Positions 24,401 to 64,000 of a DNA stretch of 64,000 bases are shown piece by piece. The notes beneath the pieces were generated by a model. The model made no database searches, was not told the DNA's origin, and was given only the letters and a program-made list of their open reading frames with translations. Position 1 is the stretch's first letter. Each line of letters begins with the position of its first letter. The stretch covers positions 1 through 64,000 of the forward strand of contig JACPBF010000012.1 of assembly GCA_016180425.1 (NCBI GenBank), in the 5' to 3' direction. This stretch comes from Elusimicrobiota bacterium (GTDB lineage Bacteria; Elusimicrobiota; Elusimicrobia; 2-02-FULL-39-32). Position numbers and translations under genes: made by a program.

Positions 24401-24742
24401 AGGAATAGCAGTGGGAAGTAAATTTAAATTAATGGATGGGATTTGAGAAAGCAGCCCTTCCCCTAATTCAGGCGCAGGAACCTTTGCAAGTAAAGTTCCT
24501 TTTTTCTCACTCTCAGTCTCAATCTCACCCCCCTTCTCAAGATCTTCCTGCCCTTTATTAACTCTATCAGCAGCAGCTTTTCTCTCCTGCCAGAGTTTTG
24601 CGACTTTGGTTTCTCTGCGAGATTTTACCGCAGGTTCAATAATCCCGTAAGCCACCTGCACATAAAAGAAAACAACCGCCATGCCTAAAGCGGTATGGCG
24701 AGTCCATTGGGAAGTGTGCCTCTTAGAGTCTGGGTTGCGCAT
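9485..24742 (-). CDS. Giant Tiki-like / M48 / UbiB-kinase / CPBP-like multidomain protein (~5085 aa)
   Basis: Start chosen at the ATG at 24742; a TTG at 24856 opens the frame but lies in the leader terminator. A hydrophobic segment near residue 20 looks like a signal anchor. Modules in order: a Tiki/TraB/ChaN-like domain with EGAHG (about 212) and GGFHTHG (about 642); an M48-type metalloprotease with HEIVH (1392) and a QDAD helix; a Pro-rich linker; an ABC1/UbiB kinase-like domain with GVKMAQ (about 2979), ADPHGGN (about 3212) and LIDSG; a membrane segment with E-E-x3-R (about 3378) and F-x3-H, as in CPBP intramembrane proteases; a second M48 site HETGH (3604); and a second UbiB-like domain with GVKLGQ (about 4742), HADLHSGN (about 4962) and LLDFG. 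The C-terminus ends in a repeat-derived RTRAFSG. Joint protease and kinase activity in the envelope is inferred. Expression appears to be under a c-di-GMP riboswitch. Confidence 0.9.
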   Translation of the reverse strand: MRNPDSKRHTSQWTRHTALGMAVVFFYVQVAYGIIEPAVKSRRETKVAKLWQERKAAADRVNKGQEDLEKGGEIETESEKKGTLLAKVPAPELGEGLLSQIPSINLNLLPTAIPKTSVGLSGSAIPKLPNDLKSRLRILPSWFKSLSISYASLRELYLPPNWKPGDFMIIHVQDAHENLEAQRNIARIIESLASSPRTDSNLISPMIVGLEGAHGPFNFSPYRSFPDKEISKEVSDYFLKESFISGPEYVGMTYGLRDREGLASGSVRATGGAQGTETVQGAGVPQSAEGLISSGSQPSSKQFFQPILFWGIEDESLYLKHVKALKESLPLEKKIKEVVQGWESSLTQLKEKNFNQDLQNLDRKMIQYHQDQIKLSEVLKLLTKQGIPADSGMIQKYINALTLEESLNYEKIEKERRALSNALVEKISKEELKDLASASLAYRLGNISYGAFYQYLRDLCAAYKITLKDFPAMDQYIRYVLISDTIRSDELFSEIDALEKKRIESLIQKPKEREIVQLSGDLRLVEKLVSFQLSPEEWKCYEARKEEIKKIEKRIEEFRFGGMRKVELSNEQTLNDKTQESLNSLIPSNFSIFQTLEPFENFNRAAILRDEALVINLLKKVGMGDSNNQNQLAVLVAGGFHTHGMTQILKNKKVAYAVLAPKLGAIEGAGTDYLEIFRRDKTPLEKLFTGERINLKSHLGTAQLEMGNEKIPIFSFLERMYLVLALGSFIKKELQQYPGLNDVVKEKIQEAVMVYFNQEKEKGKFKTIQNLEINIKDEAREFWKELDMDQKKLVLQKVAISFDFQGMNGHNSSSIELEATHKDIPYKTGKEGRVVFKSLQIGDYNFNIYPGKVSFWKQMVTVGFVHAFAKFLNFKNLLNFLKDQLKPLKSWGQGVKFRVVVSLLRVLQWISVFFSPPSPPLDLMEAGLMGKYQILSVPTYTETGQNQGKVSAKVKNLETGEEKEIEIKAQMLPSYGVKGSLNSLKKQTEDSLAKEIIDYALLKLPETFLVLEENSDSIFGISRVKVDGSHKGQTIAIADFLLDDPIGLFHEAAESYFAKNGMENIYKKLMPWGIVSFLDEWEDQGNSPGNGTLETFIHEFESHLKQNPILSQSYLIKGKDEELTFAPQYQEIISYYFYYRDWDLSEKELFPHTFLRGSGRTLREIYAQWEALGKALTHDSLVEFIEYAHEEYSYQIPLRESHLLLLNLKQGFKGKEVLFGLQDRAFGEEKNQELSSKLSEQAKENKPDSETGILEVVNYLGEAGGKVGAEQGAQKGDKYIYDPVVKTAFITKLKSEKSLISKEDDEFRALYEETEKIFKDVLGAARDYLISTGERDRAEGLIDAELFLADLNSANAGAYLYFNFVVINMGLFKELLKQGTLTKDLIAFILAHEIVHLIQFREDLDAGRIQLNAGFKSIDDLIAGKLGQHIDKYGREQDADVRAVELVNNAGYSVSEITLFFEKMAKEKKFRSKFSVMIDKHAPPETRIEYLKKIRKRGNWRKVKAEETEKFSQQTIVELNGERSKNRGMQARLLAMDSLEELEESAKNAENMDELEFLISWGMTSALKKISNGVAKDEIRNIVSSDLIQEIEDAIRKLHEFLERTYTFRSHTILKSKHLWGAPYFDLRRDSSVEEILAYCILSVLATGELPERGSLDWDKASDEELRLYSLVSKLLKEIYFPLLLENKRIRSVSKEKDRVIDVIRKRAESLISYREDPLAFFRMMSLRERPDKDVLGGYSDIREAIEIRERMEGMVKDLGLEDLIRVYKSAVYPHKIGFDLEDENKRFEGFLSEFYSFKNEIFLKYRYLVLDKISSYFPSMSLGELLGILDLILHKEKEFLGKGYWDIEKLVNSIIQELGKQGRKLKDDRRVLLSYFLKNESLHSIEAVGDFVYQELLKDPNSKVIREAIHSSAHLRKQVLRSYISAIQSQNSNKILFFDNLRNGEIKEMIELFLIGRGATVSALFMGMESDFGSIYRALINRFSFSLNELQGLKILKVFIVSHDKVRRNESGYKPLKMGDLSELLWYKVRALHTPDEKEFLKQECARILAEAGFSMDKLPESEQIFQLIYFFDSGGVLSANDFNQKALEMIQDPLIKKKDLEILALFLNSNYLRKKQEEQGIPTLFSIERIDKGQAGIDMSYFYGAPSPEEVILNKAFYQAQTWSEFIVYFNTMVYLKMTGQEKEVERMLKVDKSPGDYSMFQGELVHGEFENLPPEDKPDKPDEPNKPKDVSTEPKEVIHFFGKIGESEFLRKMRIPLIRAFERIFKNLIFGVPKYLDRRDFLREGQEGSELFQYLLNSEKEFLELLKEIKIFLPKSILRDYMLLHLLAKMVHKVDPAFKLEGRIDLKKLKKALGHLQENKEILGVLEEIAPLLSYDKRMEVINSTLLSYWGLKKSGNKKSGLGGRDYKEIKYTDSLPEVDGLKEKFEIKLEDMYKIKLREIFIKPFSFIKPSLLQRIFAAVKGFGEKIVLFLKRLVGTIRQFIIVLFKVIRGFLVDTAQFLSASFKTIGEVEVIWDFLDLYQKYRYLKNYHLELIDGADSDKERYIQAVKEFLGVRYNQELEKLDIDFADRQVENYFREELLRRLYEDRWTMVLVRWLIIFYLRIVHPQTKVELLHFGFQEKETHLDTAIPELIGSHIEKVMLDPLKPFNEKREYIKKMFQRASPVRDKYLEILSENEIVGLSADPKKREELLKNLSSLLAEFSNPYFKDKYSVFSWELERSLKPNLYVPSKEMSSDEHYNCIERNVRVTQKYFESGYLRDDLLLSILEVARTDEEYGLIKGLLYQYKGDVIKDKKTTETVFYEDHLKSFIQDASAKDKKEILLWILGVKKKPLLIIELEEFFGIQLDRLKETLVGESKARFKIENDGIHLNRLGKSAKEEFIRRMFVGENGILETDGEYESFMEAVFEKVMPKEGEVPKRKLKAILQTVLNQSNVERKLKIVQALSINLGAVLEGEEANESEIIAKFFESLGLVGVKMAQVLAHSYDISLTQDLREALNNLSSRADPLSKMVVFETIENVYPGGFKENFEVVGNPLGSASVKIVYTVKRKGASTEHVIKIKRPEVAQMMEEDLKFLKKVLEELKRKGFKIPDGLGDRISGAIAEDVDFQNEQRITKRFEQQINEVNEKSPYKLSDGKTVVEMDIARIHEGTIHQDVTMETDLAGGISLDKEEKLIAAGILNKKELEEVKQAIFDFLMKQMFEYGFYLADPHGGNFHILREGDKIKVILIDSGSAEEVARTPNNQRDLLEAMIWLSVNPGKSIPKEYLYTSVFFTKAGYLSKHLSEEQKLNIIFKYFVDRSLSPETFMEQVKEKFKSQMSAGDKMRFLFKDLGKKIKMSKESKSADILAPIVQPEKFKSWQQRVIYYVGVSIGEEAIYRWIGFVGLPMAFSFLGWDSLIGLTIGIVWSLPGFLFSHTIVRWLKYRDSGKWQGWHEELAKEFSGGFFRSRAFSTILFNLPFFLFPGHPILTLTVSVLIHFVWEIIDAYQMKLLPSFILRMNGRQSKELSPQARARIDKIRRISGIIDPSYEIVRIAETLAKAALRDLGLPEQEYLFVVSDSDDINAGFYPNEKVIEFNWGLLQFLKRNKILDKDTIKFILGHETGHSMISEQESADPNYKHSSLSREYRADEYGLTAIDKGDGKRAYTPMAAFRFMEALKKEEKSVEITTTHPHTHRRLVKIFNDIRHSYWRYLHGEPEGISESLLNVKRSERFYFDQELYGTLTFANLQESAVNATSFHDLLKVMNLFNTLLRFQTVLEEFKNPTETGVKIILEKGHLESLMAHGFSRELEEKFILDSKVNPKEYFTDEQIQEMERWAKEIALEKNITLSPELLKSLPEKLLANQIFLNLHLIEQRQGMHAKRLSPYSSFRPKLSEANDFYKPAILFWEREADIYRSRFSEFEERLEKAAKELAPELSGLSQKDKKQMVTYLYLSGLRYLKRAPHLEDHNILGYLGSLKWENPIKALEIILSHYRQFENDYLLYGVDQPWAESLQQDEQSMMHSGEGPSFEDYMDKMVVHILNEIEKKKDEFSLEELVRIYKSVAMHKRVMPQSIRNLEPLQYDKRILQLLFSKISNFNELFFSLKQLEPYLEDELEALHSHYLSEPLDKAIKNEEELLSLLDFMMGSVKFREQIVSRLELLMKKMTEEFGMEPLKAIGILDAILEKYGLENEWIDPKYDLGSRSNKPYIFSKTYMFLIGKIKDPSTQKNLIDRYYKKYNHRVHMVRYPSGPEFYTDGPLLILLKNIMKEEGLPLKEQLRFFISHGYLPDTELLSSLVNEQEKKEIFDLIMNHEQQFLNNRVHAKEFNDFVSLLAWDWFFSNEDGKLIPALNNLMRYLRPSRYNWIYLERALKTTELKALKDQDFEILFRITSLFVPSSTGLGLPDLKYSSKGSFEDGKYQSERNDYLPIWSRLKEYPKFDFSLEWGDKLLKLWLEEHRLSLEDSSWPLSQKMELVLKCYPHKSLHRNKILVDLIGDPFRMSALDFEIIFSYLEESAIKDILAKRILLEKKTLGQLKLDSYESVKEIMDFYFPVDSEIKKELLNQFLQDVEIELEELKAQSELRVTDQLARDLKKRAAHTILEHLADAIEDWEPRDKRELFEWLIGIGTEKPNELKKLEYSLKADFSDLALILETVSGVERYLFLSTLFIGPKGLLSDETNRLELVRNIFEHGTRERANDQNVLYLVFQETFNASPELKQLDLINGLFIHFLGESVKGDQAILKNLLISQLLTSFGVVGVKLGQILAKQKLITDEHLRETLEKLSDQVNPLDKRYLLNALLFDHSFGSLKRRIKTIGKLLGSASIKQGYLVKKRDGSLKAVKYVRPLARYEVKENLEIAKKVIQALRGKISGLDQISDSLMDEIDHAVHRELNIKQEVSAQKVLGRFSNGEKRNGWELRVTRIDPQLQGEQFFADEFIEGAPLKDHLISQLKRDGQFTSLQHLIYRGILRQVLIKGAYHADLHSGNIFVSLPKKAKKGGKVTLLDFGNNAKFSKKNQETFILLLAALDRLDVKQALNLVQKMIDGKKGVEGLERELEQIILNKGLDEEDKLRALKRLLDEHGIAFIGEFEVLFKERTRAFSG

Positions 24743-24840
24743 AGGGAAATTATGAGTCTTAAACCTTAAACTTTTCTTAAACTTTTTGTAACGAAAATGT
24801 AACTTTTTTAAGAACGCGTTACGCGCGCCTGCGCGCGCGA

Positions 24841-24884
24841 AAAAAGAAAAAACCAACCAGCTTTAAAAGCAAAGCTAGTTGGTT
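24841..24884 (-). terminator. Intrinsic terminator in the riboswitch leader
   Basis: Arms 24851-24864 and 24871-24884 form a 14 bp stem with one G-U pair and a 6-base loop. In the minus direction the stem is followed by a run of T residues. It lies between the aptamer and the giant gene start, as expected for a riboswitch expression platform. A second, smaller hairpin at about 24894-24912 lies between aptamer and terminator and could take part in switching. Confidence 0.8.
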
Positions 24885-36425: not shown

Positions 36426-36451
36426 AACCAATAACGGTTCTGCGAATTATA
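36426..36451 (-). promoter_or_regulatory. Possible recA promoter with inverted-repeat operator
   Basis: In the minus direction TATAAT (36451-36446) is followed by the inverted repeat AACC-N6-GGTT (36439-36426 read on either strand) at the expected start point. The position suits a LexA-type operator, but the sequence is not a known consensus. The -35 region would fall in the adjacent palindrome and is weak. Confidence 0.35.
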
Positions 36452-36453
36452 TT

Positions 36454-36618
36454 TAGTTTCTGCACTGAAAGTGCTTTCGTTACGAGATTTTGGATTTTGA
36501 GACTTTTTCTTTATAAAATTTTTTTAGCATACTCGAGAGTGGTATGGTAAAAAAATTTTATAAAGAAAAAGGCCAAAAGCCAAAATCGCAGTAGAAATGA
36601 CTTTCAGTGCAGAAACTA
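36454..36618. repeat. Long palindromic element upstream of recA (~165 bp)
   Basis: Terminal inverted repeats of ~18 bp (TAGTTTCTGCACTGAAAG at the left; its reverse complement at the right). Inside is a second long palindrome, with arms of TTTTTCTTTATAAAATTTT and its complement around a CTCGAG centre. No ORF. It fills the gap between the M48 peptidase and recA. Its size matches the other palindromic elements but its ends are of a different family. Confidence 0.8.
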
Positions 36619-36699
36619 TTTATCCAACATTCTTTTTTTCATCAATTGATATGCTATTGTCTGCTAAAATCAGGCAGAAACGAATATTTTTATTCTAAC

Positions 36700-40143: not shown

Positions 40144-40160
40144 ATTATTTTAGACCCGGT

Positions 40161-40329
40161 TTAACCGAGATTATGCATTAGGAAATGAGAACAGAGACGA
40201 AAAAGATGGGTCAGATTTCGGCACAAAAAAGTGAGAGCGTACTTATGGGTACGGTCGAACTTTTTTGTGACAAAAGATGACCTATATTTTTCGTCGAATT
40301 CCATTTCCTAATGCATAATCTCGGTTTAA
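40161..40329. repeat. Long palindromic element between rodZ and lolA (~169 bp)
   Basis: Nearly the whole length is one imperfect inverted repeat with ~80 bp arms. Ends read AACCGAGATTATGCATTAGG and its complement. The core has GAGAGCGTA...TACGGTCGAAC flanked by A and T runs. The right end supplies the lolA stop codon. The same core and related ends (AACC-N-G-N-ATT-N-TGCA-N-TAGG) occur in the copy at 63180-63341. Confidence 0.88.
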
Positions 40330-40997
40330 TCCATTTGGAATACAGCCGCATCTTTAGGCGGCTTAAATTCAAAATCTTTCTCTTTTAGATTAGGATTTTT
40401 TTCAAATTCTTGCAAGAAGGTTGTGACTTTAAATGTATTAAGAAAAAATTCCATTTTTTTTAAAATATACTCCTTTTCATCCAGAGTCAATAACATCTCA
40501 ACTCCCTCTTTATTTTCCTTATTTTTTAAACGCACCTTAATCTCTTTCTTAAGAGGCGCATTTGAATGATTTTCCAGACTCCAATCATAATCCTTTTTTA
40601 GTTTCTCCAAAGATCCGGAAACTTGGCTAATCCCCGGGAAAAAAAAGTTTTCCCCCATCCATTCATTCCAATCTTTTTTAATGACCTGATTAAACCTAGG
40701 GGTATAAATAAAAACTGTTTTTCCAGACCTTACAATGATTTGATGTTCCGGACTCTTCTGCTCAATTTTTAAAAATTTAGGCTTTTTAAAAATTACAGTT
40801 CCAGAGGATTCTTTTATTTCATCGCTCAAGGAAGATTTCATCTCCTGAACAAATTTAAATTGTGCGGATTCAATTGAAAGGGAAGTCGCTTCCATTTTAT
40901 CCTGTACTTCTTTAACAGTTAGGACCGCGCAAGCGCAATTTTGAGGGATCGCATAAAAAGAAAAAAGGAAGAAAAAGGTATAAGTTAGAGCCTTCAT
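40326..40997 (-). CDS. lolA: LolA-family outer-membrane lipoprotein carrier
   Basis: 223 residues from the ATG at 40997, where a signal peptide begins (MKALTYTFFFLFSF, cleavage near CACA); a GTG 13 codons upstream would overlap ftsK. The mature part has FKFVQEMKSSL and GTVIFKKPKFLKIEQKSP, the LolA/YoaA strand pattern, and a late KKMEFFLN segment. It ferries lipoproteins across the periplasm. The stop codon is within the flanking palindromic element. Confidence 0.85.
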   Translation of the reverse strand: MKALTYTFFFLFSFYAIPQNCACAVLTVKEVQDKMEATSLSIESAQFKFVQEMKSSLSDEIKESSGTVIFKKPKFLKIEQKSPEHQIIVRSGKTVFIYTPRFNQVIKKDWNEWMGENFFFPGISQVSGSLEKLKKDYDWSLENHSNAPLKKEIKVRLKNKENKEGVEMLLTLDEKEYILKKMEFFLNTFKVTTFLQEFEKNPNLKEKDFEFKPPKDAAVFQMD

Positions 40998-41007
40998 AAA
41001 AGAAAGT

Positions 41008-43212
41008 CTAACCCTGATTTTCTTTTTTGTCCACACTGATCAGAAATTCTTCTAATCTCTCCAGATGAATTTTCCATCGGTTAGTGTCTTTAGGTTTTTC
41101 AATCAGCCCCTTTTTTTTAAGCAAAGTCAAAGCCCAGTCATAACGAGACCCAATTTCTTTATCCGCGCGCAAAAGGTCTCCGGAAACTTTTTCCGTATCC
41201 CTCACTACCCTGGCTGCCCGGATTAAAAGTTGAATATTATCTTCACTCTCTGTAATCGAATCAGAAGTAGAATCTTCTCCCTTAAAAACATATTGAGGCT
41301 TAAAATTCTGATCCACAATGAATTTAACAACGCTGGAAACATCATTTTCAGAGACAAAACAGCCTTGTAAACGCGCAGGTTTAGGAGAGCTGGTCGCTAA
41401 AAAAAGCATGTCTCCCCTGCCCAAAAGGCTCTCAGCCCCTTGGGTATCTAAAATCACTCTGGAATCTGTTTTAGACAATACCTGAAATGCGATCCTAGAA
41501 GGCAAATTTGCCTTAATCACGCCTGTAATCACGTCCACAGAAGGTCTTTGGGTTGCAAGCACTAAATGGATCCCCACAGCCCGGGCCATCTGCGCTAAAC
41601 GCTGAATCAGATCTTCAATCTCCTTGCCTACAGTAATCATCAAATCCGCCAATTCATCAATAATCACTACAATATAAGGGGATTCTTGGCCATTGCTCTT
41701 TCTCATCTTTTCATTAAAACCATCAATATTTCTTACCCCATATTGAGCAAAACTTCTATAACGATCTTCCATCTCTTCCACTAATTTTTTTAAGGATTGA
41801 ACCGCCTCTTTTGGAGTAGTAATCACCTTCACTTTTTCGCTTGCAGATGCTGGATCAAAAAGATGCGGAATTCCATCGTAAAGAGGCAATTCAAGCCTTT
41901 TAGGATCTATCAATAACAATTTAACCTCATCCGGTCTAAAACGAAATAGAATAGAAAGTATCAATGTATGAATACAGACTGATTTTCCAGACCCTGTGGC
42001 TCCTGCAATTAAAAGATGAGGCATTACGGTTAGATCTGTAACAAAAGTATCTCCTTCAGTTCCTTTTCCAATTCCTAAAGGCAAAAGATGCGGCGATTTT
42101 TGAAAAACGCTGGATTCCATCAGTTCTCTTAAATAAACCGTTGCTGGACGGGAATTAGAAATTTCAACGCCAACCGCTGCTTTTCCTGGAACAGGCGCAA
42201 GCACTCTTAAACTCTGGGCTTTCATGACTAAGGCTATATCATTGGATAATGTTTCAATTGCCTGTACCCTCACCCCGGGAGCAGGGGTTAGGTCATAGCG
42301 GGTAATCACTGGACCTGGATGAATATCTATCACTTTCGCTTTAACGTTAAATTGTTCTAAAGTATTTTCTAATAAATTCCCATTGGCATAAAGCTCGTCT
42401 TGATCAATCGAAAAAGATTTAACCGGCTCCTCCAGAAGGTTAGGGGTTGGAAGCAGATAACCCTGATAAATGCTTTTTCCATTTAAAATTTCCGCCTCTT
42501 TTAATGGAAGAGAGAACTCTTTGGAACTTGCGGTCTCCTCATTTTTAAAATTTTTCTGAATGATCATGGGCTTGGTTTCTGCTTTAGAAGATGAAACTGC
42601 AAGTTTTGGCAGTGGCTTAAAAGGCTCGAACTCTTTTTGATTTAATTTATTTTGCAGCTCTTTTTTTTCTTTTAATTTTTCCCTTTCTTCTTTCCAATCT
42701 TGAAGGTCGTCTTTGACCTTATCTTTTAACAACTTTAAAACATAAAGAGGAGAAATTCTGGCAAGAAGTAAACTCGAAGCTATTAAAATTCCAAAAGAAA
42801 TTAAAAAAGTTAAAAGTTTGCCAAATTGTTTTATCATAAAAAGATAAATCCAATTCCCTAGGGAGCCTCCCAGCCTAAGAGCTTCCTCATTTTCTAACGG
42901 CAAAAATGTCAATAGACAAGCAAAAAACAAATAGAGCACAGAAAGAAAAAGCCCATCCTCCATTAGCCTCAGCTTTTTCTGGCCAACAATTTTTTCAAGC
43001 CCGAGCCAAAACAAAGTAATAGGGAAAAATAAAGAGGCATAGCCTGAAAAACGAAACAAAATAGAGTGCAAAGACCTGCCAAAATTACCTGTCCAATCCG
43101 GAACGATCAGAGATAAAAATAAAATAAATGAAAAAAGAATGGAGAGAAATCCTGAGACCTCAAAACCTTTGCCTTTTTTCGCTTTATGGTTTTTGTAAAA
43201 AAAATCGCTCAT
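41008..43212 (-). CDS. ftsK: DNA translocase FtsK/SpoIIIE
   Basis: 734 residues. The N-terminal half has four TM helices (about residues 20-160) and a charged coiled linker. The motor domain has Walker A GATGSGKSV (about 404), Walker B IVVIIDELADLM, and the LATQRPSVDVITGVIKANLP region. The C-terminal gamma winged helix (DKEIGSRYDWALTLLKKKGLI) recognises KOPS-type sites. It pumps chromosomal DNA at the septum; a Xer recombinase is encoded nearby. Confidence 0.95.
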   Translation of the reverse strand: MSDFFYKNHKAKKGKGFEVSGFLSILFSFILFLSLIVPDWTGNFGRSLHSILFRFSGYASLFFPITLFWLGLEKIVGQKKLRLMEDGLFLSVLYLFFACLLTFLPLENEEALRLGGSLGNWIYLFMIKQFGKLLTFLISFGILIASSLLLARISPLYVLKLLKDKVKDDLQDWKEEREKLKEKKELQNKLNQKEFEPFKPLPKLAVSSSKAETKPMIIQKNFKNEETASSKEFSLPLKEAEILNGKSIYQGYLLPTPNLLEEPVKSFSIDQDELYANGNLLENTLEQFNVKAKVIDIHPGPVITRYDLTPAPGVRVQAIETLSNDIALVMKAQSLRVLAPVPGKAAVGVEISNSRPATVYLRELMESSVFQKSPHLLPLGIGKGTEGDTFVTDLTVMPHLLIAGATGSGKSVCIHTLILSILFRFRPDEVKLLLIDPKRLELPLYDGIPHLFDPASASEKVKVITTPKEAVQSLKKLVEEMEDRYRSFAQYGVRNIDGFNEKMRKSNGQESPYIVVIIDELADLMITVGKEIEDLIQRLAQMARAVGIHLVLATQRPSVDVITGVIKANLPSRIAFQVLSKTDSRVILDTQGAESLLGRGDMLFLATSSPKPARLQGCFVSENDVSSVVKFIVDQNFKPQYVFKGEDSTSDSITESEDNIQLLIRAARVVRDTEKVSGDLLRADKEIGSRYDWALTLLKKKGLIEKPKDTNRWKIHLERLEEFLISVDKKENQG

Positions 43213-43500: not shown

Positions 43501-43570
43501 GGTTCAAGCCCGTATTTTGCAAGCTTGACGTTAAATTCGACACGCAAGATTGCAAAAGTTGGGTTCAAGC
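43501..43570. repeat. Short palindromic element downstream of accB
   Basis: A ~70 bp imperfect palindrome with ends GGTTCAAGCCCGTATTTTGC and TTGCAAAAGTTGGGTTCAAG (complementary arms), sharing CCCGTATTTTGCAA with the long element inside giant gene 3. It provides the accB stop codon at 43565-43567. It looks like a deleted or minimal member of the same family. Confidence 0.65.
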
Positions 43571-53481: not shown

Positions 53482-53527
53482 ACTAAGAAACTTTTTTAGA
53501 AGGATGGGTATGCAAAAAATATCGTCT

Positions 53528-53566
53528 TTAACCGAGATTATGCATTAAAAAATGAGAACAGAGACG
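53528..53566 (+). repeat. Truncated palindromic element (left end only)
   Basis: This stretch repeats the left end of the rodZ/lolA element, including AACCGAGATTATGCATTA, AATGAGAACAGAGACG and nothing of the core or right arm. It contributes an ATG at 53552 that opens the downstream ORF but probably is not its start. Confidence 0.75.
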
Positions 53567-55840: not shown

Positions 55841-58800
55841 TCAGGAGTTTTCCTTGACCAACACGCAAGCCAACTTTACGATTAATTCCCTCATCCATCT
55901 AAAACGAACCAATAAAATCGCGCTTAAAAAAGCATGGGATTTTGACCAGTTCACAATCCGAACTCTTTGAGAAAATTGGATAAAAATCTTATTCCTTGTT
56001 TTTTCTGGAAGCCGAGATAAAATCTTCTGGATTCTTTTAAACTTTGCTTCAGGGTTTAGGTCAGCTTGAGATGAAAGGATGAACTGAAAAATAAAAGGGT
56101 TTGAGAAAAAAAGTTCTGGTTCGGTTTTTAGGGAAAGCGGCAGGAGAAGTTGTTCCGGAGCAATTCTTTCTTTAGAATAGCTTCCCCACTCATGGCTAGC
56201 CATAAAAATCATTAACATTTGAGCAAAGGAGCTAAAATCAAGGTAAGTTAAAAGCCAGCCTAGGGGGCTGCTTAAGGCGATTAAGTTCATAAGCCGGCTA
56301 GATGCATAAGAAAAAAGATCAGCCAAAGATCGTCCGGTAGAACGCAACTTGAGCGCAAAAACATTGTTAATTCCTGGATTTAGAAAAAATGCGCTTTTTT
56401 CTTTAAGCCCGACTCTTGACAGACCTTCAATTCCTTTCCAAAATCCCTCTTGCGGTTCAATCTTTTTATATAAAGGAGAGGCTTTTTCAATCAGTCCCTC
56501 TACCGCTCTAAAATAGACTTTTTTTAATTCATCTAAATTCTTTGCCGCGCCTATCTTCTCAATCAGAGCTTTTGAAATATTTTCCTCAAGTAGGGTCTTT
56601 TTTTCAGACAAAATTCCGCTTAAGGCTTGGTCCAAAACTTTCCATCCCTTTGAAACATGTTCTTTAGATAGTGGAAGATTCCTTTCAGATAAACATCTTG
56701 ATATAAATTCATCTAAAACCACTAACCTTTTTTGAAGATTTTGAACTATTAAAGAAAAATCCCCTTCCCATGAAAAAGAAGAAAATGCTTTCTCTAAGTC
56801 AGGATCAAGACTTCTAAACTGCTTAAGCTCTTCCAAAAGAGATTGAAAAAAAGTTTTGCTCCCTAAAATAAACCCTGGCAAATGGTTTGGCTCTGAAAAA
56901 AAATCTGCTAAAACTTTGGAAAACATGGTACGATCCATGGTTAAAGAAGCCTCTAATTTTTTTCTTAATTCAAATATAAAAATTTTCAACTCCCCTCTAA
57001 ACTTAAGAGACGTATGAGCAAATGGAAACCTTTCTTTGACAAAAGTCAACAATCTATCCTGATCTAATCTCCCCCCAGCAGCATGCACAGCCTTATCCAG
57101 AATTGGCAAAACCTTTAAAAAAAACTGGGTTATAGATTGTAAATTCTCCTCCCCTCCATCTTTAATAAGTTCTGCTTTTAACTCTAAAATCTGATCTTTT
57201 AATTTCTGATCTTGGGATAGAGCAAAAACCATTTCTGAGCTTTCTTTACAAAACGATTCTACGGACCGAAATAAAATTTGAGCGCCCTCTCCTTTAGGAT
57301 GGGTCAGTTCTCCTCCCAAACGCATGATCTTTTCTTTCATAAGCTCCTCCAAACCCTTTTCTGCTTCTAATCGCAAAGAAAGATAAATCTTTTTAAATTC
57401 TTCCAAATTCAGGTTCGAGCTTCTGATCAAATGATCTCTAACCTTTTTCACCAATGTTTGTTCAGGCAAAAATCCTAAAACCTTTTCCAAATTTTTTGCA
57501 AATGATTCTAAACCATAAAATAAATCTGAAATCTCTTTTGAATCTCCTAATGACATCTTAAGCCCCGGAACCATGATTGGTTGTGAAAATCGAGGTTCAT
57601 TCCACAAGCCAAGTTCAGTTCCGGGGTTTGAATCTCCTAAGGATCCCTTAAGGGAATCTTGCAAGCTGCGGTGAGGTTCTCCCTTCATACGTTCAACCTT
57701 TTTTAAAAATCCATTCAGCTCATCTTCTTGGAACTTAAAAAAATCTTCCCGGGTTCTGGCAGAACTAAGACGCTGTAATTTTTGAGGCAACTGCTGATCA
57801 AGAAAAGTTCCTAAACTCCTTTCATTTTCTTTAAATAAGATGAACTTTTCTTTTAAATCTCTAGCTAAGATTTCAAACCTTTTATGAATTTCTTCTTGCG
57901 GATATAGATGCTCCTCGCTTTGAAAATGTTGGATCTCTTTTTCTCTCATCTCTTTGCCAAAATACGGCAATCCTTTTTCTCTAAAAATAGTGCTTAAAAT
58001 ATGGTCAATTTCTTTCTCTAAATTATTCAGGGTTTTAAAAGCCTCAGCGCTTGTGCGAAAATGGTTTTGAGGATCTTCCAGAAAACTCTTGAGCGAGGAT
58101 GCAGAGTTTGGATTTTTGGAATCCATGAGATTCAAGGTCATTGAGATTTTTTGCAAAAGCTCTTTTGCTTCTAAATTTAATTCTCTGGAAGCTAGCCATG
58201 TTTCAAGGGGATGAAAGTCTCTCCTTATTTGATCCCCATCGGAGAATGCCCCTAAGGAGTAGGAAGATGGTTTTGTTTTCGATAGAGGAAAAAAAACAGA
58301 TCGGACTTCTCTAAAAAGCGTTTGGGATACTGCTCTTACTGATCGCGCCAGATCAGGAGAAGATAACTCTTTATTTAGAGATTTGCCCCACAAGGTTTGC
58401 CAAAAAACCTCTGCAAAAGATTGGGTTTCTTGTTTAATTTTTGCGTCTAGAACACTTTTTTTCCAACCATGATCTAACCCTTGCAAAAATTTTAAAATTT
58501 GTTGGGCGCAAATTTTCGGATCACTTTCCAGCTTACTTTCTTTTAATAAAGGCTCTATGCTTTGAAATAGGTTTAATTTTGTCTCTTGAGCATGGTCTTT
58601 AGTCCCTGAAATTGTCATTGATTGTGAGAATGTGGATGAATTCCACAATTCAATCTCTCTTCTGGGATTTTTAAGCTGCAAAACATGAACGATTCTTAAA
58701 AAATGACTCTTTAAAGCATTGACGCTCGCCTCCAAACCTTCCTTTGTGTCTGCTAAAGAACCAGTCCCAATAGTTTTAATCGCTTGGATATCTCTCATCA

Positions 58801-61800
58801 GAAAAAATTGCAGGCTGTTCTCAATGGTTTTTATGTCAGCCTGAATTTGTCTAGCTAAAGTTAAATTAAGATCAAACTTTATGGAATTTTTTAAAAGCAC
58901 CCTTTGCCAAATTCTCTTGATCACAGGCTCTGCCAAATCCCTATTTTCTCCAAAACCTAAGGATAAACCAGAGTGAATCTCCTCTCTTTTTAAAGCAGCC
59001 TCTCTATTCTCTAAAATGATCAGAAACTGCTCCAACTTCTTCCCAGAATTTATGAAAATTTTTGAATTGTATGGAATCCCTAATTTTTGAGAAACTGTAG
59101 AAAGCAGCTCTTTAGTTTCTTGAATATAAGCTGGATACCTTTGCGCAATCTCCAAATAGCTTCTTGCGCCTTCAAAATGATGGTTCAACCGCTCCTCTAA
59201 AATCCCAAGCTTTTGATCTTGGGTTAAAAGAACTATGGTCTCATCTAATTTTTGATTAGTGTTCCTAAATTCTTTTAAAAATGGTTCTGGGGAGCTGCTA
59301 TTTTCTAAAACAATTTGAGAAAAATTTGGAGTTTTAAAATAAAGCAGTTCGGAATCCTTAAAAACTGTAAGTAATGAATCTTCAATTTCATTTTGCATGC
59401 TTAAAAAAGTTCTTTCAAATTGTTTAAGATCATATTGATTTTTAAAGTTCCCTAAAATTTTTGTTTGGAAAAATTCCCACAAAGAGCCAACCCCGTTTTT
59501 CAAGGCTAAGGATGGATTCCAAAAACTATTTAAAAGAGCGCTGCCTCCTTTAGAAAGTATTTCTTTCCATTCCCTGCTATTTTCTTCTTTTAAAGCGTAC
59601 TCCATCATCTTAATAAGAAGAGTTAAATTCGCTTTTTCTTTCAAACCAGGAACGCTCTCCAAAGCTTTTTCCATTTCTTCCGCGTACCGAAACATCCCTT
59701 TTTTAAGTTCTTCTAAATTTTTTACATCTTTAAAACAGATGTCAAAAATAGAATTAACCTTTTCTAAAAGCCTCTCTTCCCCAGAAACTAAATAAAATGT
59801 CTGTCCCAAAAATCCCTTGTGCGCTAAAAAAATCCGGAATAAAAAATCTTCCAATTCATTGTTTTGAAGGTTCCAAACCCAAGACTCAAAAAAAGACCTC
59901 TCTAAATGAACTGGAATAGAATTCCTGCTTAAACCCCGATTCAACAAATCTTGAGAAAGTTCTTGCAAAAATTCATGGAAACCCTCTTTTTTTAAAGGCT
60001 TTTCAAATATTGCTTGAACCACTGCCGCGTGGTTTTCTACAGCGCTCCTTATATAATGATCCAAATCTTGCTTTAAAGATTCTTCAATTTCCTGATAAGC
60101 ATGATAAAAAGGACTGAACTCTTCAGGTTCTTCATCGAATTCTTTTTCAAGCAAAGACCTCACCCTATTTTCCAGTTCTCCGGATAAAGCGGCTGGACTA
60201 GAGCTTGGTTCTGAAAATTCATCCAACTCTATTTTTCTTTGATTGAGCTCTTGCTTAAAAAAATCAGCGCTTTGAGCAAACCTAATAAGCCAGTTTTTCA
60301 AGCCAAAGGCATCTGTTTCTAGCTCTTTTAAATCAGTCAGTTCCTTATCTATCCGCTCTAAAGCAGGATAAAAATAAGAGTCCTGATCTAAGCGGTCCAA
60401 AAGATTTTGCACTCTAGTTGAAAATGATTCCTCAATTAATTCTGGAAATTTTTCAAAAAGAGCTTGGGTTGAATTCTCAAACAAATCTTTTTCTACTAAA
60501 GAATTAAGTAAAAAATGATCCCCTTTTTCTATGGTCGCTTGAATAAATTCCATTAATTCAATCAGAGCTTGTTTAAACTCTTCCCTATCCTCAAAATGAG
60601 CGTAAGGGGTTTGATAAAAAAGTTCTTTTGCCTTTAAAGTCAAAAAGCCCTTATGAGCAGCGCTTCCTATTTTTCCCTGATCCTCTTCAATCCTAATTTC
60701 CATTTGTTCTAGCCAGGCGCTAATATTTTTAATCCATTCTTTAGAATTTACAGGATTTTGCTTCAGTTTAAAGAGCATTTCCTCCATCTCTAAAGAGTCT
60801 AAAGGAGAAAGCCTCAACGCAATCCTTCTTGCATTTAAATGTTCCAGCATAAAACGAGCCGCGCTTTCCAAACCTTGAGAAAGTTTTTCAATTTTAAATG
60901 GAGCGTCATTTAAAGAAAAATAGATATCTCTTTTTGCGTTCCGCTCATAATCCCTTTGCTGAAACTGCCGATAACTTTCTAAATAAAATGAGCGAAAGAA
61001 AAATAGAGAAATCCAGGAAAAAAAAGGAGAAAATAATTTTTCCGCAAAAAAATCCATTTTAGGATTTAAGAGCCCTGCGGCGAGCAAACTCTTTCTTAAA
61101 ACCCTCGTATCCCTGACTAAGACCGAAGCCAATAAATAAAGCGACCTTCCTAATAGATACGTAATAAAAATGACGCTAAGGGTAAGACCAGGTTCAACCA
61201 AACTCTCTAAGCTAAAGTTAGAAAAACTCATGACAACTTCTCTTAAACTGCGCCTTAGGGGTGAATAAAGAACAACCCAGAAAGAGCCTAGTGGAGCAAG
61301 CGCGCTTAAGGTTAACCAGCTCCATTCTTTTGTTTTTTCCATTTGGTTCCTATCTTCTTTCTTTAAAACCGCGCTGTTTTTAATCTCCTCTAAATCCATC
61401 TTTCTCCAAAAAAGGAGATCTAAAGAACGAAGCCACTCTAAAAAACCGATCATTGGCTCTAAAAAGATCATCCTCACTAAAAAAAAGTAACGCCTCATAA
61501 AAAAAGCGGGATTGAGAGCCATAAACAGTTCTAATTTCTTTTCTATTTGCGCGCGGAGCAGCTCTTCCTGAAAGACCCTTAGCTGCAAAAATTTTGGCAT
61601 TCCTTTAAAAGCGTTCTTATGAATAAAAATAGTTCCCTCTCCTCCAATCTTTATCAGACGAAACCCTAACTTTGCATAGGGTCTCCCTTTCGCTCCTTTA
61701 AATATTTCCAGATGCGGATCCAATTTTTTATCTTTTTGAAAAGGGCCTATTCTATGAACCCCAAGATAAAGAACAGGGTAACGAAAAATCCAATCCCGCA

Positions 61801-64000
61801 AAACACTGAAACCTAATAAAGGCGCAAAAGAAAGAAAAAAATTCACAAAACCAGAATTAGCTCTAAAAAGGAAATGGGTTAGGTATCGAACAAAATTAAA
61901 AAGATGATCCTCAGCTTCTATCTGAAGCGTTAAGATAGGAAACCAAAGGGAGAAACTCATGGAACCAATGAGCGCAAAAAGGATTGTGGAGGAAAGAAAA
62001 AAATTCATCCAGACAAAAGAACGTCTCCATTCTAAAGGAGCTCTAAAATCATTTTTTGCGAGCTTGCTAGCGCGGCGCGCCAGTAATAGCTTTACAACGT
62101 TTAGTTGACGGCAAGCATTGGTAAGAGGCGTTAGGGACATTCCAGTAGTATTCGATTGCGTTTTATTAATTTGAAGCTGAATTAAGATGAAAAAGCTCTT
62201 TAAAAATTTTAAAGGAAGCAAAACGCCGCCTAAAAATATTGAACTGACAAATCTGGATATGGGGCTAAGATAATATCTTCCAACCCTCTTAACTCCTAAA
62301 ACATTCAAAGCGCTTAAATTATGAATATAAAGAAAAATTTGCAGGGCAGGCGGAACTTTCTTTAAACTTTTATCAAATATCTCAACTCTCTCCTTATTTT
62401 TTAAACTCACAGGACTCCAAAATTTCATTCTTGAAGGGATCTTTTTCATTAAAGGAATGGAATCAAATCCTGAAAACAATGGAACATCTTTTTTATGCTT
62501 AAAATAACGATCCAACGCGAATTTATTCAAAAATAGGATTAAAAAGCCATGTAAAGCATGCGCTAGGGATATGGAAATAAGAGGGGCCAAAATTTGATAA
62601 GGAATAAGAGAAAATTGAAAGAAAATCTTAAAAAATCTTTGAACTGAAAAAACAAGCGGATCAATCACCGCTGAATTCCAATGCGGGCTGTGAACCGGAC
62701 TTGTCACAAACCAAAGAAGGAAAAAAAACCAAAGAGAATTGAAAGTTAAAGAAACTAAAAGAGCGGTTTGATCTCTTTTTTTAACCCCCTGGCTATTCCT
62801 CCAAAAATTTTTAAGAGACTTTAGTTTCCCTTGAGTTTCTACTTTAGCATCTCTTAATAAAGTATCTAACGGAAGCTCAAATTTATAATTAAATATTTTT
62901 TTCTTTTTTTCAATCTGCCAAACAACAGGCTTCCCGGAAATTCTTAAAACCAAGTAAGCCTTATTCCTTCCTGAATAAAAAATTTTTTCAAAACTTTCTA
63001 TTTTTAAAGAAGAAAATTTTTTTAACCATTCTTTAAGCTCCAGTAAAAGCCTCTTTTTATGCCGAACGCGATGGCGAAAAAGAGAGAGCAGGATCAGTTT
63101 AGCAACTGTCTCTTCTCTAAACCCAGGCTTTAGGAACTGAGATGGCGGCGCAAGAAAATCATCTGAGAATGAGTTGTTTAACCCGTATTTTGCAATAGGC
63201 GTGTCGGAGGAGATGAACGAGGACGCGACTTTTTCGACGAAAAAAGCGAGAGCGTAGCGTTGGCTACGGTCGAGCTTTTTGAGGACAAAAAGGTCCGTCA
63301 TCGTTCGTCGAATCCAACGTCCTATTGCAAAATCCGGGTTTAAGGAAGGTTGAATGATAAAATAATTTACCTTTTTCTCCTTAAAAATCCGTTTTAAACC
63401 ATGGGTATGAAATCCCCCTGCAATGAGCACAGCCTGATGAATATTCCTTCTTTCCATATCTCTTAAAGCATTTTCAGCCATGGCTCTATCTCTTTTTACA
63501 GCCAGCTCGTAAAATTCGTTAGTATCATGGTAACGCTTCATCCACTTGGCTGGAACCATCGCTTTAAAAAACTTTTCATTTTCTTTATGATTCAACCGCA
63601 TCCATTCTTCCTTGCCCATTTTTAGGGAAAAAAATCTTTCCAAATTTAAGAAATGTTTTGCCTTTAGTTGCCTTAGGTACGCATTTAATGATAAATCCTG
63701 TTTTAAGAGCTTAAAATAAATCTTTGCATGAGATTGATAGAGTTCTGTATCTTCTACTCCAATAATCCGTAAACCTGCATGAGGATTTCTTACCGCATAG
63801 AACTCAGGTCCAGTTAAAGAGCTATCCTCTAAATAATTTTCAGCCAAAACTTCTTTTATGTTTCTGCTAGGGAAATCACTAAAAAAACTAATAGAGAGTT
63901 CCCCCCATGCTCCTTCAACATAAACCGGGGTTGTCTCTTTAACCCGTATTTTGCAATAGGCGTGTTGGAGGAGACGAGCGAGGGCGAGGCTTTTTCGACG
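55841..64000 (-). CDS. Giant membrane / helical protein with Tiki-like N-terminal domain (5' end beyond right edge)
   Basis: Open to the window edge: about 2719 codons seen. A TTG at 63847 opens a complete frame, but homology to giant gene 2 continues upstream (VEGAWG here, LEGAHG there), so the real start is outside. The first ~330 residues are the Tiki/ChaN-like domain with GGFHTHG (about residue 195). A palindromic element inserts ~54 residues just after it, and another lies at the edge. A ~700-residue multi-helix membrane region follows. About 1500 residues of charged, probably alpha-helical and coiled sequence follow, then two hydrophobic segments near the C-terminus. No kinase or HExxH motif was seen. 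Function unknown; homology of the N-terminal domain is directly visible. Confidence 0.88.
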   Translation of the reverse strand, partial: RRKSLALARLLQHAYCKIRVKETTPVYVEGAWGELSISFFSDFPSRNIKEVLAENYLEDSSLTGPEFYAVRNPHAGLRIIGVEDTELYQSHAKIYFKLLKQDLSLNAYLRQLKAKHFLNLERFFSLKMGKEEWMRLNHKENEKFFKAMVPAKWMKRYHDTNEFYELAVKRDRAMAENALRDMERRNIHQAVLIAGGFHTHGLKRIFKEKKVNYFIIQPSLNPDFAIGRWIRRTMTDLFVLKKLDRSQRYALAFFVEKVASSFISSDTPIAKYGLNNSFSDDFLAPPSQFLKPGFREETVAKLILLSLFRHRVRHKKRLLLELKEWLKKFSSLKIESFEKIFYSGRNKAYLVLRISGKPVVWQIEKKKKIFNYKFELPLDTLLRDAKVETQGKLKSLKNFWRNSQGVKKRDQTALLVSLTFNSLWFFFLLWFVTSPVHSPHWNSAVIDPLVFSVQRFFKIFFQFSLIPYQILAPLISISLAHALHGFLILFLNKFALDRYFKHKKDVPLFSGFDSIPLMKKIPSRMKFWSPVSLKNKERVEIFDKSLKKVPPALQIFLYIHNLSALNVLGVKRVGRYYLSPISRFVSSIFLGGVLLPLKFLKSFFILIQLQINKTQSNTTGMSLTPLTNACRQLNVVKLLLARRASKLAKNDFRAPLEWRRSFVWMNFFLSSTILFALIGSMSFSLWFPILTLQIEAEDHLFNFVRYLTHFLFRANSGFVNFFLSFAPLLGFSVLRDWIFRYPVLYLGVHRIGPFQKDKKLDPHLEIFKGAKGRPYAKLGFRLIKIGGEGTIFIHKNAFKGMPKFLQLRVFQEELLRAQIEKKLELFMALNPAFFMRRYFFLVRMIFLEPMIGFLEWLRSLDLLFWRKMDLEEIKNSAVLKKEDRNQMEKTKEWSWLTLSALAPLGSFWVVLYSPLRRSLREVVMSFSNFSLESLVEPGLTLSVIFITYLLGRSLYLLASVLVRDTRVLRKSLLAAGLLNPKMDFFAEKLFSPFFSWISLFFFRSFYLESYRQFQQRDYERNAKRDIYFSLNDAPFKIEKLSQGLESAARFMLEHLNARRIALRLSPLDSLEMEEMLFKLKQNPVNSKEWIKNISAWLEQMEIRIEEDQGKIGSAAHKGFLTLKAKELFYQTPYAHFEDREEFKQALIELMEFIQATIEKGDHFLLNSLVEKDLFENSTQALFEKFPELIEESFSTRVQNLLDRLDQDSYFYPALERIDKELTDLKELETDAFGLKNWLIRFAQSADFFKQELNQRKIELDEFSEPSSSPAALSGELENRVRSLLEKEFDEEPEEFSPFYHAYQEIEESLKQDLDHYIRSAVENHAAVVQAIFEKPLKKEGFHEFLQELSQDLLNRGLSRNSIPVHLERSFFESWVWNLQNNELEDFLFRIFLAHKGFLGQTFYLVSGEERLLEKVNSIFDICFKDVKNLEELKKGMFRYAEEMEKALESVPGLKEKANLTLLIKMMEYALKEENSREWKEILSKGGSALLNSFWNPSLALKNGVGSLWEFFQTKILGNFKNQYDLKQFERTFLSMQNEIEDSLLTVFKDSELLYFKTPNFSQIVLENSSSPEPFLKEFRNTNQKLDETIVLLTQDQKLGILEERLNHHFEGARSYLEIAQRYPAYIQETKELLSTVSQKLGIPYNSKIFINSGKKLEQFLIILENREAALKREEIHSGLSLGFGENRDLAEPVIKRIWQRVLLKNSIKFDLNLTLARQIQADIKTIENSLQFFLMRDIQAIKTIGTGSLADTKEGLEASVNALKSHFLRIVHVLQLKNPRREIELWNSSTFSQSMTISGTKDHAQETKLNLFQSIEPLLKESKLESDPKICAQQILKFLQGLDHGWKKSVLDAKIKQETQSFAEVFWQTLWGKSLNKELSSPDLARSVRAVSQTLFREVRSVFFPLSKTKPSSYSLGAFSDGDQIRRDFHPLETWLASRELNLEAKELLQKISMTLNLMDSKNPNSASSLKSFLEDPQNHFRTSAEAFKTLNNLEKEIDHILSTIFREKGLPYFGKEMREKEIQHFQSEEHLYPQEEIHKRFEILARDLKEKFILFKENERSLGTFLDQQLPQKLQRLSSARTREDFFKFQEDELNGFLKKVERMKGEPHRSLQDSLKGSLGDSNPGTELGLWNEPRFSQPIMVPGLKMSLGDSKEISDLFYGLESFAKNLEKVLGFLPEQTLVKKVRDHLIRSSNLNLEEFKKIYLSLRLEAEKGLEELMKEKIMRLGGELTHPKGEGAQILFRSVESFCKESSEMVFALSQDQKLKDQILELKAELIKDGGEENLQSITQFFLKVLPILDKAVHAAGGRLDQDRLLTFVKERFPFAHTSLKFRGELKIFIFELRKKLEASLTMDRTMFSKVLADFFSEPNHLPGFILGSKTFFQSLLEELKQFRSLDPDLEKAFSSFSWEGDFSLIVQNLQKRLVVLDEFISRCLSERNLPLSKEHVSKGWKVLDQALSGILSEKKTLLEENISKALIEKIGAAKNLDELKKVYFRAVEGLIEKASPLYKKIEPQEGFWKGIEGLSRVGLKEKSAFFLNPGINNVFALKLRSTGRSLADLFSYASSRLMNLIALSSPLGWLLTYLDFSSFAQMLMIFMASHEWGSYSKERIAPEQLLLPLSLKTEPELFFSNPFIFQFILSSQADLNPEAKFKRIQKILSRLPEKTRNKIFIQFSQRVRIVNWSKSHAFLSAILLVRFRWMRELIVKLACVLVKENS
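57563..57626. repeat. Small in-frame hairpin repeat in giant gene 3, copy 1
   Basis: A 64 bp palindrome with ends CCCCGGAAC and GTTCCGGGG. It is translated as a peptide beginning PGTELGLWNEPRFSQ. AATCTCCTAA repeats directly on both sides (57541 and 57631), giving SLGDS twice in the protein, which may mark a target duplication. Confidence 0.65.
58601..58668. repeat. Small in-frame hairpin repeat in giant gene 3, copy 2
   Basis: About 68 bp, similar to the copy at 57563: TTGTGA, ATTCCACAA and ends TCCCTGAA / TTCTGGGA align. The peptide (REIELWNSSTFSQS) matches the first copy at ELWN and FSQ. Confidence 0.6.
63180..63341. repeat. Long palindromic element inserted in frame in giant gene 3 (~162 bp)
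   Basis: Ends AACCCGTATTTTGCAATAGG and a near-perfect complement; arms ~80 bp; core GAGAGCGTA...TACGGTCGAGC shared with the rodZ/lolA element. Length is a multiple of three and the host frame stays open, adding about 54 residues (starting FAIGRWIRRTMTDL and ending SSDTPIAKYG) just after the Tiki-like domain. Confidence 0.88.
63941..64000. repeat. Long palindromic element at right edge (partial)
   Basis: Starts with the same 20-base end AACCCGTATTTTGCAATAGG and a similar inner part as the copy at 63180. It is cut by the window. The giant frame is open through it, in a different reading phase from the other copy, and it lies where giant gene 2 has a loop between conserved strands. Confidence 0.8.

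Follow-up and report, generated by a model that had tools for sequence, protein, structure and literature searches.

A palindromic element in a giant open reading frame

The DNA analysed here, referred to as the window, is a stretch of 64,000 nucleotides from a bacterium of the phylum Elusimicrobiota (assembly GCA_016180425.1, contig JACPBF010000012.1, positions 1 to 64,000 of the forward strand). It belongs to a genome of 2.6 Mb (G000); the window's contig is C21, and C19, C37, C42 and similar labels denote other contigs of G000. At the right end of the window the minus strand carries an open reading frame (ORF) with 2,719 codons or more, which contains a palindromic element of 157 bp at 63182–63338 with the pentanucleotide TTTAA on either side (Table 1). 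Since the element sits between these 5-bp duplications the net gain is exactly 162 bp, corresponding to 54 added codons, and the reading phase is restored after the insert. Read from the initial base of the duplicated TTAAA, this copy contains no stop codon in that frame.

A preliminary description of the window had reported a near-perfect palindrome at 63180–63341 inside an ORF, with a length divisible by three and about 54 additional residues. The palindrome in an open frame was confirmed and the 162 bp hold if the element is counted together with one TTTAA; the boundaries were off by 2–3 bases. The RNA folding energy of the element was -75.7 kcal/mol compared to -37.4 ± 3.7 kcal/mol for dinucleotide shuffles (z = -10.5). 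Near-perfect, however, is only the pairing of the terminal ~18–23 bp: the arms show small indel differences, and identity between the copy and its reverse complement amounts to 71%, which makes it a strong yet imperfect palindrome. No Rfam covariance model matched any part of the element with an E-value up to 1, and no DNA match was obtained against plasmid and phage records. A second copy in this ORF, at a distance of 760 bp (63943–64000), had escaped the preliminary description; it is read in another phase and its visible 128 bp are stop-free there.

Empty sites and target site duplication

As a reference for empty sites we used G001, a relative of the same genus. Its orthologue of the host gene is an ORF of 2,650 codons with 78–89% protein identity in the aligned blocks and is devoid of both inserts, thus lacking the whole segment instead of retaining it in a non-palindromic form. 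At the first site G000 reads CAACCTTCCTTAAA, followed by the element (CCCGG...CGGG) and TTAAACAACTC, compared to CAACCTTCCCTAAACACTTC in G001; on the protein level QPS-LNTSFS of G001 corresponds to QPS-LNPDF...KYG-LNNSFS in G000. At the second site the element ends with ...CGGG followed by TTAAAGAGACA, and G001 shows the empty site AACATTAAAGAGCCA, ATTAAAGAG. A third copy is located in another giant gene (C19:57298–57472, L062) and has TTTAA on both sides in G000; the corresponding site in G001 is ATTATTTAATTTTGATTC, inside an ORF that runs uninterrupted for 1,424 codons or more. This copy contains an internal 5-bp tandem duplication and the gene is frameshifted in the present assembly with both halves open; the frameshift could be real or an assembly error. 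Hence three genic copies have an empty site in G001 and a duplicated TTAAA or TTTAA, and in one of the three the frame is broken.

Considering all distinct copies, identical 5-bp flanks were found at 39 of 70, compared to a mean of 20 and a maximum of 32 in 1000 shufflings. The pattern TTNAA is present at about 60 of the 70 copies, a figure that is biased upward because part of the collection was obtained with a pattern including TTNAA.

A multicopy family with common ends

Copies were gathered from G000 by blastn and by an end-pattern search, for which the reversed pattern of the ends served as control. The blastn search yielded about 17 substantial copies with 86–94% identity in addition to short and solo ends, and allowing up to 3 mismatches 80 end-like sites were detected versus none for the reversed control. 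The copy in the host gene is therefore not unique, which the preliminary description had named as a point to be checked. Family members carry terminal inverted repeats of ~18 bp, CCCGNATWTTGCAWTAGG, on both ends. The main form measures 157 bp, relatives range from 158 to 203 bp, and short forms have about 45–60 bp. The 157-bp element is present in many copies and holds no transposase gene. It is almost certainly a miniature inverted-repeat transposable element (MITE), a status established by its anatomy. Most full-length copies in G000 lie outside genes.

The related intergenic copy proposed earlier at 40161–40329 proved real. It spans 160 bp between TTTAA flanks, is 80% identical to its own reverse complement and folds even more distinctly (z = -14.3); used as a query it linked more divergent copies to the family. 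Tiny palindromes of 32–59 bp, barely longer than two ends, were noticed at C27:1808–1839, C13:79905–79963 and in the window at 43509–43563. Their size suggests products of core deletions.

Table 1. Coordinates of the element, its host ORF and related features in the window
Feature	Position	Strand	Basis or remark
Palindromic MITE copy in host ORF, 157 bp	63182..63338	-	sequence, multicopy, fold z -10.5, empty site in G001
Frame product of this copy plus duplicated TTAAA: LNPDFAIGRWIRRTMTDLFVLKKLDRSQRYALAFFVEKVASSFISSDTPIAKYG		-	
Target site duplication TTTAA, left in the window	63177..63181	.	sequence; single CTAAA/TTAAA-like site in G001
Target site duplication TTTAA, right in the window	63339..63343	.	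sequence, comparison with G001
Terminal inverted repeat CCCGTATTTTGCAATAGG	63182..63199	+	end-pattern search
Terminal inverted repeat CCCGGATTTTGCAATAGG	63321..63338	-	end-pattern search
Host ORF, at least 2,719 codons	55841..64000	-	5' end beyond contig; weak ChaN/Tiki-like domain near inserts
Second MITE copy, same ORF, other phase	63943..64000, continuing to contig end C21:64065	-	90% identity, empty site in G001
Duplicated TTTAA of second copy	63938-63942		
Divergent intergenic member, 160 bp, ends CCGAGATTATGCATTAGG	40165..40324	.	end search, fold, symmetry
TTTAA flanks of intergenic member	40160-40164, 40325-40329		right flank provides TAA stop of ORF 40326-41036
Short form, 55 bp, same end type	43509..43563	.	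end search
Solo end of 40165-type member	53527..53566	+	95% over 40 bp

Within Elusimicrobiota the family is patchy. At most one mismatch being allowed, the ends occur in 11 of 341 genomes (reversed control: 0 of 341), with 4 sites in G001 versus 35 in G000. Three relatives are Elusimicrobia metagenome-assembled genomes (MAGs): G004 (JAHFCA010000008.1, from the window's family), G036 (PMLF01000224.1) and G033 (JANQER010000454.1). Beyond Elusimicrobiota these ends, in most cases as inverted pairs, were found in Omnitrophota, Algoriphagus (Bacteroidota), Helicobacteraceae (Campylobacterota) and others.

The repeats also break the present MAG assemblies, and four G000 contigs end in or near a copy: C21, C37 and C42 end inside copies, and on C27 a copy lies 99 bp from the contig start. 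The right end of C42 and the left end of C37 carry the same copy type with TTTAA flanks; both contigs are probably adjacent in the genome. A separate structure at 36449–36623 of the window consists of nested inverted repeats (44-bp arms with 84% complementarity, outer arms of 30 bp) and shows no sequence relationship to the MITE.

Effect on the host protein

A ChaN/Tiki-like match covers residues 136–199 of the host ORF with an E-value of 2.4e-4, which is below the strength of the curated cut-off. The first copy follows this match and the second falls into this N-terminal region as well, with SSIYQNI and KEPTPLYVEGAWG on its two sides in the alignment with G001. In comparison to G001 the ratio of nonsynonymous to synonymous substitution rates (dN/dS) is 0.25 overall, with 0.29 for the stretch between the two copies and 0.24 for the one following the first copy, although much of this divergence may be older than the insertions. 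We conclude that the element is very probably inserted in frame into the host protein, which tolerates one copy just after the ChaN/Tiki-like domain and apparently a second one within that region.

Alternatively, the host gene could be a pseudogene in the making whose frame is open by luck and not by tolerance. This explanation would fit the presence of two copies in a single gene, of which the second lies in the domain region, as well as another giant gene of G000 (on C19) frameshifted by its copy. About 2,700 open codons and a dN/dS of about 0.25 argue against it, even if most divergence may predate the insertions, and we consider a decaying gene unlikely, though still worth weighing against the tolerated in-frame insertion.

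The region around the inserts shows further peculiarities. A host-gene block of 135 bp (about 63524–63661) is missing in the G001 orthologue and G005 aligns across it, which suggests a deletion in G001. Very long minus-strand ORFs are located at 3–9041 (at least 3,013 codons), 9485–24856 (at least 5,123 codons) and 55841–64000 (at least 2,719 codons), and Tiki-like homologous segments recur in giant ORFs of relatives with up to about 13,000 codons.

In-frame insertion in other genes

Sequence comparison indicates further in-frame insertions, the clearest of them in a QueG-type epoxyqueuosine reductase of G033. Here a 160-bp member (165 bp with the duplication, 55 residues) follows directly after GCDLCQDVCP; on both sides of the insert the protein aligns to the insert-free QueG structures 5d08 and 5d6s (TIGR00276, E 3.7e-84). 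In G036 a response-regulator ORF is open through its copy. L125, L141 and C3:59013 may have N-terminal extensions running through a copy, the true start codon being uncertain in these cases.

We also assessed whether the frame is selected. Length plus 5 is divisible by three for members of 157, 160, 178, 166 and 181 bp, and is not for those of 158, 164, 165 and 180 bp. The enrichment of frame-preserving lengths, which the preliminary description had suggested testing, was not significant: 5 of about 9 unrelated length classes versus 3 expected. In the 157-bp subfamily the frame is open in 15 of 17 aligned copies. Simulations without coding constraint, run along the tree of copies and conditioned on the extant copies, matched this value in 8–17% of runs (p about 0.08–0.17). 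Codon positions 1 and 3 are equally variable, position 2 somewhat less, and the copies of Algoriphagus have no open frame. A length of 162 bp is a multiple of three and at least one frame is stop-free, so that a suitable insertion adds 54 codons without truncation. Frame compatibility thus appears to be largely a by-product of length (157+5 or 160+5) and of a composition with a stop-free frame. A more far-reaching view, namely that palindromic IS1380-type MITEs across Elusimicrobiota, Omnitrophota, Bacteroidota and Campylobacterota have retained length and stop-free frame since genic copies are tolerated, and act as recurrent donors of ~54-residue insertions, also to conserved enzymes like QueG, appears quite unlikely to us.

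Candidate transposases

The ends were also found around a complete insertion sequence (IS). L127, from a Limisphaerales MAG (PLAY01000084, Verrucomicrobia), measures 1.4 kb, has CCCGGATTTTGCATTGG and CCCGGATTTTGCATTAGG as its ends and encodes a transposase of 436 aa, for which the score with NF033539 (IS1380 family; cut-off 180) is 261 bits. The right end starts a few bases past the transposase stop codon, from which we conclude that the ends belong to that IS. Since the MITE ends agree with them at 17 of 18 positions, we read the element as a palindromic MITE with IS1380-type ends. IS1380 transposases have been treated as distant prokaryotic relatives of the piggyBac transposases (PMC10140906), whose target is TTAA (PMC7351741); this would be consistent with the A+T-rich target of the MITE. 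Judging from the ends, an IS1380-type enzyme is the likely mobiliser, and movement of the element by such a transposase seems reasonably probable.

Other candidates were rejected. Further IS1380 elements from Elusimicrobiota and Aliarcobacter have ends that differ or were not identified. L159 and L174 do not qualify as autonomous elements; their end pairs are due to chance, because the genes in between are ordinary cellular ones. In viral contigs neither the ends nor the L127 transposase were matched.

Mobilisation by another DDE transposase, e.g. that of an IS1634-family element in G000, has a small chance of being correct. A 488-aa IS1634-like transposase ORF is indeed present at C39:114527 (C39:114527–114865; L193:832–2298), with weakly MITE-like ends, CCTGACTTTCGCATTT, resembling CCCGNATTTTGCAWT, whereas no IS1380 transposase was found in G000. 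Yet the similarity of these ends covers about 9 of 13 positions versus 17 of 18 for L127, and no clear 5-bp duplication is seen beside the element. A solo MITE end is situated 5' of the IS1634-like ORF.

For an IS1380-type MITE we propose the following course. The non-autonomous palindromic MITE with the ends CCCGNATWTTGCAWTAGG inserts at TTNAA and duplicates about 5 bp. An IS1380-family DDE transposase, supplied in trans and by now gone from G000, would recognise the ends and move it. Insertion in suitable orientation and phase adds 54 codons to a protein instead of truncating it. As a whole, a palindromic IS1380-type MITE tolerated in frame is an explanation in which we have considerable confidence. 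Most likely the element is selfish DNA without a function for the host, in which it is occasionally tolerated as an inserted peptide.

Several observations weigh against this explanation. The link to IS1380 depends on one element, L127, whose flanks TTCAA/TTGAA fit the TTNAA target without forming an exact duplication. A profile search revealed no IS1380 transposase above the cut-off in G000, and a search of MITE-carrying relatives revealed none above the cut-off with these ends. Two copies show a 6-bp repeat (TTAGAA, TTCTAA) instead of a 5-bp one. The contig end cuts the second copy in the host gene and hides its upstream junction; a search of the remaining G000 assembly did not recover the N-terminal part of the gene, which was presumably lost at the contig break. 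Finally, the conserved pairing of the core exceeds what a DDE transposase needs.

Conservation of the hairpin

This pairing was evaluated in 15 full-length copies from four genomes, the structure being taken from the same alignment. The 59 predicted pairs were paired to 96.5%, compared to 36–50% when one strand was slid by 1–3 columns. Changes on both sides were present in 16 pairs, with 66 double-changed cells versus 23 expected, a number reached in none of 500 shuffles. These compensatory changes show that the hairpin is being preserved, either through selection or through conversion of one arm by the other.

A maintained hairpin with dispersed copies mostly outside genes is also reminiscent of repetitive extragenic palindromic (REP) sequences and bacterial interspersed mosaic elements (BIMEs), spread by a REP-associated tyrosine (RAYT, Y1) transposase or amplified without transposition. 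The element carries 5-bp target duplications, for which REPs are not known, and has its ends in common with a DDE transposon. REPs are also extragenic and measure 20–40 bp (PMC3733652) versus 157 bp here. We regard this origin as very improbable.

Relation to known elements

The preliminary description had likened the palindrome to the Rickettsia palindromic elements (RPEs), which are palindromes of about 150 bp, repeated in the genome and in part located in frame in proteins with insert-free orthologues (PMC10969869). The likeness stood insofar as the present element is repeated, in frame and missing from an orthologue; kinship, judged without a direct comparison to RPE sequences, found no support. 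That it is an RPE or shares the mode of movement of the RPEs, as similar size, palindromic shape and in-frame position in unrelated proteins with element-free orthologues might suggest, has hardly any chance given the ends and target duplication of an IS1380-type MITE, two copies in different phases of one gene and the lack of any Rickettsiales record among 52 stretches with exact end matches. IS1380-like terminal repeats and a 5-bp duplication make MITE the better description than RPE.

A literature search of limited coverage turned up neither a report of such elements in Elusimicrobiota nor a description of IS1380-type MITEs like these. A review of prokaryotic MITEs from 2024 regards in-frame fusions caused by MITEs within genes as nothing unusual and RPEs as the extreme case (PMC10969869). 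We thus regard the family as new, and in-frame insertion of a MITE is in itself already known. Rickettsia is the best-known case of palindromes inserted in frame; here an apparently unrelated family from another phylum does so, and a definite route of transposition is suggested by its target duplication, the empty sites in orthologues and the IS1380-like ends. Should proteins commonly tolerate such inserts, uncultured bacteria would have in small transposons a general supply of new protein segments.

With IS1380-family elements (L127, NF033539) the MITE shares the terminal repeats CCCGGATTTTGCATTRG and TTNAA-type flanks; L127, however, has 1.4 kb and a 436-aa transposase, whereas the MITE has a palindromic core and no transposase. 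The Correia elements (CREE) of Neisseria are likewise MITEs of ~100–200 bp with inverted ends, mostly intergenic and sometimes in coding sequence. Their ends differ and their target duplication is TA, in contrast to the 5-bp TTNAA duplication found here. REPs and BIMEs resemble the element in being palindromic and dispersed with a conserved hairpin. RPEs, compared by their published description (PMC10969869), resemble it in size, repetition, in-frame insertion and a stop-free frame through most copies. They differ from it in phylum, and the present element is set apart by IS1380-like ends, the 5-bp TTNAA duplication, a location mostly outside genes, copies using different phases in one gene, and a peptide for which no significant selection was found here. 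The comparison with Rickettsia holds for behaviour and probably not for membership.

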